Origin: an uncultured Bacteroidales bacterium
Lineage (GTDB): Bacteria; Bacteroidota; Bacteroidia; Bacteroidales; JAUNSR01
Direction: 5' to 3'
Length of the DNA: 64,000 nucleotides
Assembly: GCA_947074145.1 (NCBI GenBank)
Contig: CAMTOJ010000009.1
Coordinates: 1-64,000 of the forward strand
The notes beneath the pieces were generated by a model. It saw only the letters and a program-made list of their open reading frames with translations. It made no database searches and was not told where the DNA came from. Positions 7,307-44,581 of this stretch are shown here, in pieces; position 1 is the first letter of the stretch; each line of letters opens with the position of its first letter. The position numbers and the translations under genes were made by a program.

Positions 7307-7609
7307 TCAAATCAGACAGCTATTAGGGTCATTATGCTCATCAGACTCCACTACATTATAACCCTTATGACGTTTTAGCCATAAATCGGCATAGGAGCAG
7401 GTTGGCTTTATTTTGAGCCCGTTTTTGCGAGCATAATCACATGCTGCTTTTACAAGCTGAGCTGCTATACCTTTACCTCTTAATTGATCGGGAACAAATG
7501 TTGAACGTATATCGAAGATATCTCCCGTAATAGTATAGTTGACCCTGCAAGTAAATCCCTCAGTGGTGTATGTAAAAACTTGTTTACCTTTATCCTGAAT
7601 TATATCCAT
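7307..7609 (-). CDS. Small GNAT-like N-acetyltransferase (YjdJ type)
   Basis: A protein of about 100 residues with the compact acetyltransferase core: an acetyl-CoA-binding segment LRGKGIAAQLVKAACDYAR (Q/R-x-x-G-x-G/A type) followed by KIKPTCSYADLWLKRH. This matches the small single-domain 'N-acetyltransferase, YjdJ-like' proteins, whose substrates are mostly unknown. I chose the ATG at 7609 because the core begins there (MDIIQDKG). The frame stays open to an upstream ATG at 7651, which would add 14 basic residues unrelated to the family and approach the inverted repeat. Transcribed divergently from the M16 peptidase. Confidence 0.8.
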   Translation of the reverse strand: MDIIQDKGKQVFTYTTEGFTCRVNYTITGDIFDIRSTFVPDQLRGKGIAAQLVKAACDYARKNGLKIKPTCSYADLWLKRHKGYNVVESDEHNDPNSCLI

Positions 7610-7663
7610 AATATTGTTTTTTATGTATCGGGGAGCAGATTTCAGATTCATAGAGAGATTCTC

Positions 7664-7751
7664 GCTGCTCCTTGCTATGTATCAACTGATAACTAGCAAG
7701 TTATCAGTTGAATCCTTGCTAGTTATCAGTTGATACATAGCAAGGAGCAGC
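7664..7751. repeat. 88-bp perfect inverted repeat with nested palindromes
   Basis: Positions 7664-7700 and 7715-7751 are exact 37-bp reverse complements around a 14-nt centre (7701-7714). Smaller dyads are nested inside. CAACTGATAA (7683-7692) pairs with TTATCAGTTG (7701-7710), and TTGCTA/TAGCAA (7672-7677/7694-7699) pairs within the left arm; the right arm has the same TTGCTA/TAGCAA. The element can therefore form one long hairpin or alternative shorter ones. There is no T-run, no transposase and no obvious target duplication. It lies between the divergent acetyltransferase and M16 peptidase genes; the rest of 7652-7952 is AT-rich with one candidate promoter. Confidence 0.9.
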
Positions 7752-7904
7752 AAAAAGACTTTTAGGTTTTACAAAAACATATCAATTATTGATATTTATA
7801 CTTGTAACGCCTGAAAATCATGAAATTTACATCTCCGAAAGACGTTAATAATTTTAATTTATAACCATATCACCCGTTTATCGGTTCAACTCTTTGAATT
7901 TTAT

Positions 7905-7952: not shown

Positions 7953-9176
7953 ATGACAAATCTTTTTCAACATACATTTCCCGACGGATTAAGAGTAATT
8001 CATCTTCCTGTCAAATCAAAAGTCGCTTATTGCGGATTTCTTATCAATGTAGGTAGTCGTGACGAAGCAGATTCGGAGCAGGGAATGGCTCATTTCGTTG
8101 AACATATGATTTTCAAAGGTACAACCAAAAGAAAGTCGTGGCACATACTCAACAGAATGGAAACTGTTGGGGGAGAACTAAATGCAAGCACATCAAAAGA
8201 GGAAACTTTTGTTTATTCCGTATTTCTAAAAGAGGATTTTTCTCGCGCCGGCGAACTTCTTTGTGATCTTGTGTGTAATTCGGTTTTCCCAATCTCTGAA
8301 CTTGAAAAGGAGAGAGATGTAATATTCGATGAGATAAACTCTTATCGCGATAATCCGCCTGAACTTATTTATGATGATTTTGAAAATATAATTTTCGAAA
8401 ACAACCAGCTAGGTCATAATATACTGGGAGAAGAGAAAATACTTGAAACATTCGATACCCAAAAGACTCTTGACTTTTATAAACGATGGTATCAACCTTC
8501 AAATATGATCTTCTTTTCAATGGGGGATTTCGACTTCAAGACTGTGCTGAAGCTAATCGATAAACATTATAAACCAATGCAGGTAAAACCTGTAACACAT
8601 AATAGAATATCGCCTCACCCTGTTGGGACTTGTGATATACGTCAGGATAGAAATACTTATCAGGGACATGTCATAATTGGTAATAAGGCTTTCTCGATGA
8701 ATGACGAAAGACGTACAGCTCTTGCTGTTATGAATAATATTTTGGGCGGACCGGGAATGAATAGTCGTCTTAACATTGCTCTTCGTGAAAAGAAAGGTTA
8801 TGTCTATAATGTGGAATCTAATTTTTCCGCTTATACTGACTCTGGAATATTTTCAATCTATTTCGGTACTGATAAAGAAAATATCGATAAGTGCCTGACA
8901 ATCGTAAACAAAGAGATTAGCAAACTGAGAGATTCTTCTCTAACCTCCTCGCAACTAAATGCCGCTAAAAAACAGCTTATAGGTCAGATTGGTATTTCTT
9001 CTGAAAATAAAGAGAGTATGATAATGGGGGCTGCTAAAATTATGCTTCATAAAAATGAATATGAAACTATTGAGCAGACTATAAGAAGAATTGAAGCTGT
9101 TTCTACTTCTCAAATTCTTGATGTTGCCAATATGGTACTTGACAAAAATGAGCTGAGCACTCTTATTTATTTTTAG
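7953..9176 (+). CDS. M16 family (pitrilysin-like) zinc metallopeptidase, single-unit form
   Basis: 407 residues without a signal peptide, so probably cytoplasmic. It has the inverted zinc motif HxxEH (HFVEH, His47 to His51) with Glu127 76 residues later as the third zinc ligand, the family spacing. The C-terminal half holds the inactive M16 partner fold, including the R/Y-type region around GGPGMNSRLN. This size fits the PqqL/mitochondrial processing peptidase-like bacterial proteins (YmxG type), which cleave peptides in a closed chamber, usually as dimers. A separate mnmA-like gene starts 78 nt downstream on the same strand. Confidence 0.9.
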   Translation: MTNLFQHTFPDGLRVIHLPVKSKVAYCGFLINVGSRDEADSEQGMAHFVEHMIFKGTTKRKSWHILNRMETVGGELNASTSKEETFVYSVFLKEDFSRAGELLCDLVCNSVFPISELEKERDVIFDEINSYRDNPPELIYDDFENIIFENNQLGHNILGEEKILETFDTQKTLDFYKRWYQPSNMIFFSMGDFDFKTVLKLIDKHYKPMQVKPVTHNRISPHPVGTCDIRQDRNTYQGHVIIGNKAFSMNDERRTALAVMNNILGGPGMNSRLNIALREKKGYVYNVESNFSAYTDSGIFSIYFGTDKENIDKCLTIVNKEISKLRDSSLTSSQLNAAKKQLIGQIGISSENKESMIMGAAKIMLHKNEYETIEQTIRRIEAVSTSQILDVANMVLDKNELSTLIYF

Positions 9177-44242: not shown

Positions 44243-44318
44243 AGTATATAACTTTTAATCATATTCCTGTTTTTATTCTTTATTCCAACCAAATTAAATT
44301 TTTTCAATGATGTTTTAT

Positions 44319-44404
44319 ATCCTATACGCAAATAGAATATATCCTAAAGGCGTATAGGATTAAACCTAAAAGCGTGTAGGATGTATCCTAAAAGCTGTTA
44401 GGAT
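44319..44404. promoter_or_regulatory. Array of four 22-bp-phased palindromes
   Basis: Four copies of ATCCTA-N8-TAGGAT begin at 44319, 44341, 44363 and 44385, an exact 22-bp period with 2-nt linkers. Copies 2 and 4 have perfect outer arms; copy 3 begins AACCTA and copy 1 ends TAGAAT. The N8 centres share an A/G-rich core (aaggcgta, aaagcgtg, aaagctgt). The phasing places every site on the same DNA face, as expected for cooperative binding of a dimeric regulator. It lies 163-178 nt before the Ig-like lipoprotein start and about 400 nt before the dcw operon. Confidence 0.75.
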
Positions 44405-44581
44405 AGAAAAGGTTATTTGGAAAATTTAAATCTTGAATGAATAATAATGTTAAATAATAAGCTTTAAACTATAGAGGTCTTAATATCTGACGAAGAAAAC
44501 AGAGTGTAATGGGCATAAAGCTAATTATTCCCGCGAAATTCATATCTTTACTTCTGTTTTTGTATAATGACAGAAAATAAT

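Follow-up and report, generated by a model that had tools for sequence, protein, structure and literature searches.

The window analysed here is a stretch of 64,000 nucleotides from an uncultured Bacteroidales bacterium, whose genome assembly comprises 3.71 Mb in 106 contigs and is 95% complete. At 7664-7751 lies an 88-bp inverted repeat whose two arms (7664-7700 and 7715-7751, 37 bp each) match perfectly around a 14-nt centre, just as the initial annotation had described; the arms extend to 42 bp if two mismatches are tolerated. The repeat adjoins an ORF on the minus strand (7307-7651) for a GNAT acetyltransferase (Pfam PF14542), and its downstream neighbour on the plus strand (7953-9176) encodes an M16 peptidase (PF00675/PF05193), which served as the anchor for the matching site in relatives. 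The true start of the acetyltransferase is probably the internal Met of MDIIQ: in G003, the relative nearest to this bacterium (83% identity in the M16 protein), the homologue aligns from this residue (MDIIQ/MEIIQ), which would place the listed start ~14 codons too early.

A rough estimate puts the chance of a perfect 37-bp inverted repeat with a fixed 14-nt loop in 64 kb at ~6e-17. Folded as RNA, 7664-7751 reaches -70.1 kcal/mol (z -15.7), a value attained by 0 of 200 shuffles, and the DNA fold likewise stands apart from shuffles (z -14.9). The nested short hairpin that had been proposed as an alternative fold is present in the letters at 7683-7710 as CAACTGATAAC-TAGCAA-GTTATCAGTTG. An intrinsic terminator (a GC stem and then a T-run) was considered and rejected because a search of the element turned up no terminator-like T-run, in agreement with the initial annotation.

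Together with an alignment of copies, the sequence divides this core (7664-7751, unstranded) into four 22-bp units with 6-bp half-sites on the plan n-HHHHHH-nnnGCnnn-HHHHHH-n. Unit 1 (7664-7685) reads G-CTGCTC-CTTGCTAT-GTATCA-A with its GC step at 7674-7675, unit 2 (7686-7707) reads C-TGATAA-CTAGCAAG-TTATCA-G with the step at 7696-7697, unit 3 (7708-7729), whose first half-site is degenerate, reads T-TGAATC-CTTGCTAG-TTATCA-G with the step at 7718-7719, and unit 4 (7730-7751) reads T-TGATAC-ATAGCAAG-GAGCAG-C with the step at 7740-7741. Both flanks of the core follow the same A-rich outward consensus aAAAAnnnCTTTnGGnAAAATnAAA, inverted with respect to each other, out to ~25 bp, with symmetric flanks aAAAAnnnCTTTnGG on either side. 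At the window copy the right flank (7752-7777, AAAAAGACTTTTAGGTTTTACAAAAA) matches this consensus, and the left flank position (7638-7663) is degenerate and overlaps the acetyltransferase ORF start as listed.

The core belongs to a family, here called A, whose half-sites are TTATCA/TGATAA internally and CTGCTC/GAGCAG at the ends. Each family A core holds three TTATCA-nn-TGATAA dyads at 22-bp spacing, the middle one often decayed on one side, and the 30 exact TTATCARYTGATAA dyads listed in the own genome all lie inside family A copies (reversed-pattern control, 0). BLAST found family A at 17 places in the own genome including the window copy, 16 of them full and one chimeric or decayed, with roughly 76-88% identity between the other places and the window copy; apart from these arrays and matches of 14-19 bp, the core hit nothing else there. 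Every full copy (16/16) is exactly 88 bp long and free of gaps. The places are intergenic with one exception, a ~15 bp overlap with the 3' end of an ORF, and their neighbouring genes are unrelated, different at every place and in all orientations, with no common neighbour type. Gene orientation at the 16 copies (nine co-directional, four divergent, two convergent, one at a contig edge) is in line with the background. The initial annotation had also suggested a regulatory RNA structure ahead of the acetyltransferase; this was not supported, as no other copy has that position and the genes around the 17 places are unrelated and variously oriented.

Perfect arms are peculiar to the window copy, the other 15 full copies having 3-8 arm mismatches each. 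It alone carries mirrored changes at positions 15-16 and their partners that preserve pairing, and this double change suggests copying from arm to arm. The active maintenance once proposed is thus plausible in the form of arm copying for this one copy, and its perfect arms are an outlier that does not necessarily imply youth. A BLAST check had been proposed as the means of recognising a mobile element: the multiple dispersed copies were found, but not the target duplications (2-12 nt, all offsets up to 44 nt, family A copies): the strongest of about 22,000 combinations reached z 3.8, which is not meaningful, and no offset or length stood out. Beside five copies (left flanks of L036, L040, L042 and L044, right flank of L035) a degenerate common stretch around TTTAACGATTTT and AAGTAAGTTGACTC lies 20-170 bp outside the core and is perhaps promoter-like or a second repeat. 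One copy is adjoined by a gene pair (L034, 1000-2587), an HTH and IrrE-like protein with a small partner ORF lacking a Pfam match, which is possibly of the toxin-antitoxin type.

A second 88-bp array of four units lies in the same window at 44318-44405 (unstranded), with units like T-ATCCTA-nnnGCnnn-TAGGAT-A, the same frame and the same kind of flank; it represents family B, with half-sites ATCCTA/TAGGAT. This array is located upstream of a Big_5-domain protein. The family B pattern CCTANNNGCNNNTAGG occurs at 27 sites in 11 places of the own genome (reversed control, 2), 26 of the 27 sites being grouped at 22- or 44-bp steps, and the six copies measured are all 88 bp. When a flank model derived from family A only was run on ten B flanks, the average score was highest precisely where the 88-bp core ends (mean 5.7 against a background mean of -18.2 and a 99th percentile of 1.3, which 8 of the 10 exceeded). 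Family C (TTACAC-CTTGCAAG-GTGTAA) has one copy that was read end to end, and this copy agrees with family A in length and register. The 22-bp period and the four units are found in 16 A copies, 6 B copies and 1 C copy, and GC occupies unit positions 11-12 in 54/64, 19/24 and 4/4 units, respectively. The seventeenth family A place (L047, 2616-2711; G000 contig 31, 27915-28010) is a chimera with family A ends and family C units, which speaks for recombination between the families or for descent of one from another.

The frame was also searched by itself, as TTTY, four GC steps and RAAA at the frame positions with one mismatch. This pattern found 29 sites in the own genome, all of them arrays (14 A, 1 B, 13 C and the chimera; reversed control, 0), and since it was designed when A, B and one C copy were known, 12 of the C copies are new predictions; in 59 other genomes it found 17 sites against 8 in the reversed control. 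Only 1 of the 11 family B places meets it at one mismatch, most of them failing because flanks and GC steps vary. In G003, a species of the same genus, the frame occurs with TA centres and another sequence (family D): all four matches of a TA-centre frame pattern there are 22-bp arrays with units like TTACAACCGTACGGTTGCAATA, three of them previously unseen, and the single match in G001 did not have the appearance of an array. For family C, an additional B copy and the arrays of G003, flank scores were not significant, falling within or close to the random range. A frame scan with a loose flank score was dropped, being uninformative apart from its top rows (5107 pairs, 5080 in the reversed control).

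The family A core had no BLAST match in 59 relatives, four of them from the same genus. The GNAT-M16 gap of G003 is ~200 bp shorter and lacks the element, and the slyD-aroC gap, which holds copy L043, contains no such element in G001, G002 and G004, G003 not being syntenic there; these empty matching sites could instead be losses, and at the divergence of the comparisons the flanks align poorly. The 17 dispersed places, the absence of BLAST matches in the 59 relatives and the empty matching sites fit the non-autonomous mobile palindrome named among the first suggestions. Beyond the relatives, plasmid records gave no match to the element, phage records gave two weak matches of ~36 bases in Staphylococcus phages (E 0.1), and pattern scans gave three matches in a collection of genome contigs, all single sites without an array, and none in a collection of viral contigs.

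A screen of 295 genomes of the order with a covariance model of family A pointed to G207, G278 and G027, which have arrays of unrelated palindromes with the same 22-bp period; a weak match in G005 was rejected as an ordinary hairpin. The G207 family occupies at least 40 places (40 candidates were scored), 29 of ~98-109 bp, three of ~76 bp and eight of 52-56 bp, size classes that differ by 22-bp steps. Its members (L091-L119) lie mostly upstream of genes, with cores more alike than flanks. In a survey of 2.2 Mb from 19 genomes, 22 bp was the commonest period of non-coding tandem arrays (27/57, followed by 21 with five and 14 with four) and the period of 19 of the 23 arrays with palindromic units, in a non-random sample to which the own genome, G207, G278 and G027 had been added after the model matches; without the own genome, G207 and G278, period 22 accounts for 5 of 23 arrays. 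G019 (1258 bp) and G029 (four contigs, 1430 bp) were too small and were excluded from this count. Twelve of the 19 samples had no 22- or 23-bp array (G004, G011, G012, G025, G027, G028, G032, G033, G035, G041, G045 and G059), G006 and G022 had 23-bp arrays only, and G007 had one 22-bp array whose unit is not palindromic. Other tandem arrays were seen as well: G207 has 10-bp arrays (TCTTATGAGT / ATAAGAACTC) as nearby inverted pairs (L168, L169, L171) and, elsewhere, 21-bp GCCGGC-type arrays, and G033 has 41-bp non-coding arrays, one of them palindromic (L214-L217), reminiscent of the 41-nt repeats reported in P. gingivalis.

The G207 family bears on a rival explanation, in which the arrays are fixed sites for host proteins, serving as operators or in chromosome organisation, and gene conversion instead of transposition has spread and homogenised them. 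The fixed phase and the half-sites specific to each family would suit such sites, as would the position of the G207 arrays, which are upstream of genes more than expected (among 28 placed, 15 divergent, 11 co-directional, 1 convergent and 1 inside an ORF; background gaps, 10 divergent, 18 co-directional and 9 convergent). Family A, however, has neither a common kind of neighbour nor an upstream bias, and same-genus genomes lack the element at matching places, so that we regard this explanation as unlikely.

A function as RNA, in the form of several transcribed hairpins that lie in 5' or 3' regions and affect stability, termination or translation, we consider rather improbable. The RNA and DNA folds are very stable, and in the copies paired cells far exceed slid controls. 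The long hairpin and an outer stem with two small hairpins each pair 88.2% of cells, and no clear winner emerged between them. Both-sided changes in the small-hairpin fold somewhat exceed shuffles (4 of 500 reach the score), but covariation in the long hairpin is weak (22 of 500), that of family B units is not significant (stem P 0.10), family A gene orientation is that of the background, and Rfam gave no family at the gathering score, its best E-value matches being miRNA hairpins far below the cut-offs. A role as a folded strand, with a reader of hairpins, is possible. A REP/REPIN-like nature, with single-stranded hairpins recognised and moved in trans by a Y1 (RAYT-type) transposase, is very unlikely in spite of REP-like traits (palindromic, ~100 bp, intergenic, tens of copies, two or more hairpins each) and of the reported precedent of CGTC-type REPs in Bacteroidetes without a dedicated transposase (PMC3733652), because our transposase survey of the own genome, which covered Y1_Tnp (PF01797), gave 0 matches (5 of 14 control genomes were positive; a gene may be missed in a 95% complete assembly), there is no constant GTAG/CGTC tag (GACG stands at its one place in 5/16 copies), and a fixed 88-bp length with a 22-bp phase is foreign to REPs.

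Our best reading, to which we give about an even chance, is that the element is a lineage-specific, non-autonomous, intergenic mobile repeat whose core consists of phased protein-binding dyads on duplex DNA. The element is dispersed, its length and register are fixed, A and B have common flanks, and half-sites are replaced from family to family; that it moves, or that further intergenic places receive copies of it, is well supported. That the core acts as duplex DNA, recognised by protein dimers two helical turns apart, we infer because length and register outlast the sequence from one family to another and also between species; in a folded strand, loops and linkers would be free to change. 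A duplex-DNA platform, which the initial annotation had no means of seeing, is also favoured by an 88-bp frame common to unrelated sequence families. The core would then serve a multimeric DNA-binding protein as a platform; this protein might be the element's own mobilising one, and its dimers would bind the 6-bp half-sites on one face of the helix, two helical turns apart. Such a geometry would fix the 88 bp and forbid insertions and deletions, leaving the half-sites free to follow changes in protein specificity, and the long perfect hairpin would arise mostly as a side effect of the symmetry of the units, made sharper in the window copy by arm-to-arm copying. No mobilising gene was found in the PF01797 survey, and the arrays have no linked DNA-binding protein; both count against this reading, as do the target duplications that were looked for and not found.

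More tentatively, and in our estimate more probably wrong than right, the arrays of the order may form one superfamily, with a rigid 88-bp frame of four dyads at 22-bp spacing, to which short common flanks are added in this genus, 6-bp half-sites replaced wholesale and several families per genome, the footprint of a fast-evolving, undescribed family of multimeric DNA-binding or mobilising proteins. Small intergenic palindromic repeats are common, but for most of them neither maker nor reader is known; a frame that holds to the base pair as the sequence within it changes separates what the shape of a protein demands from the letters that it reads, and 88-bp duplexes of families A, B, C and D offer direct bait for this protein. 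Reading the element as dispersed also explains a long perfect palindrome that had seemed an isolated oddity. We found no description of 22-bp palindrome arrays of this kind in the open-access literature.

Protein-binding sites of ~22 bp, repeated about two helical turns apart, are known from plasmid iterons and TnsB-type arrays, which are confined to one origin or to transposon ends, whereas here dozens of cores are dispersed between genes and have no known linked gene. REP/REPIN elements with RAYT (PMC3733652) are likewise small dispersed palindromes, and their dimers can form either a single long hairpin or a pair of short ones, but the present element has a fixed 22-bp phase, and we rejected membership because no Y1 (RAYT-type) transposase gene was found in the 95% complete own genome and there is no constant tag. 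The nearest described element is the BrickBuilt MITE of Porphyromonas gingivalis, which is intergenic, present in ~19 copies, confined to one species and without an internal gene, has inverted-repeat ends, and is built of short tandem units that can form long stem-loops. BrickBuilt has 1 to about 23 copies of a 23-nt unit, a separate leader and tail of up to ~300 nt, and IS-type TIRs (like GAGACCTTTGCA), from which, as printed, our flanks differ by eye (PMC4596501); the present element comprises 88 bp in exactly four 22-bp units, with short common flanks and several families per frame. Unit length, unit number and ends all differ on this comparison, and membership in BrickBuilt was rejected as well. 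We file the element as a variant of the small intergenic mobile repeats, standing outside both BrickBuilt and REP/REPIN-RAYT.
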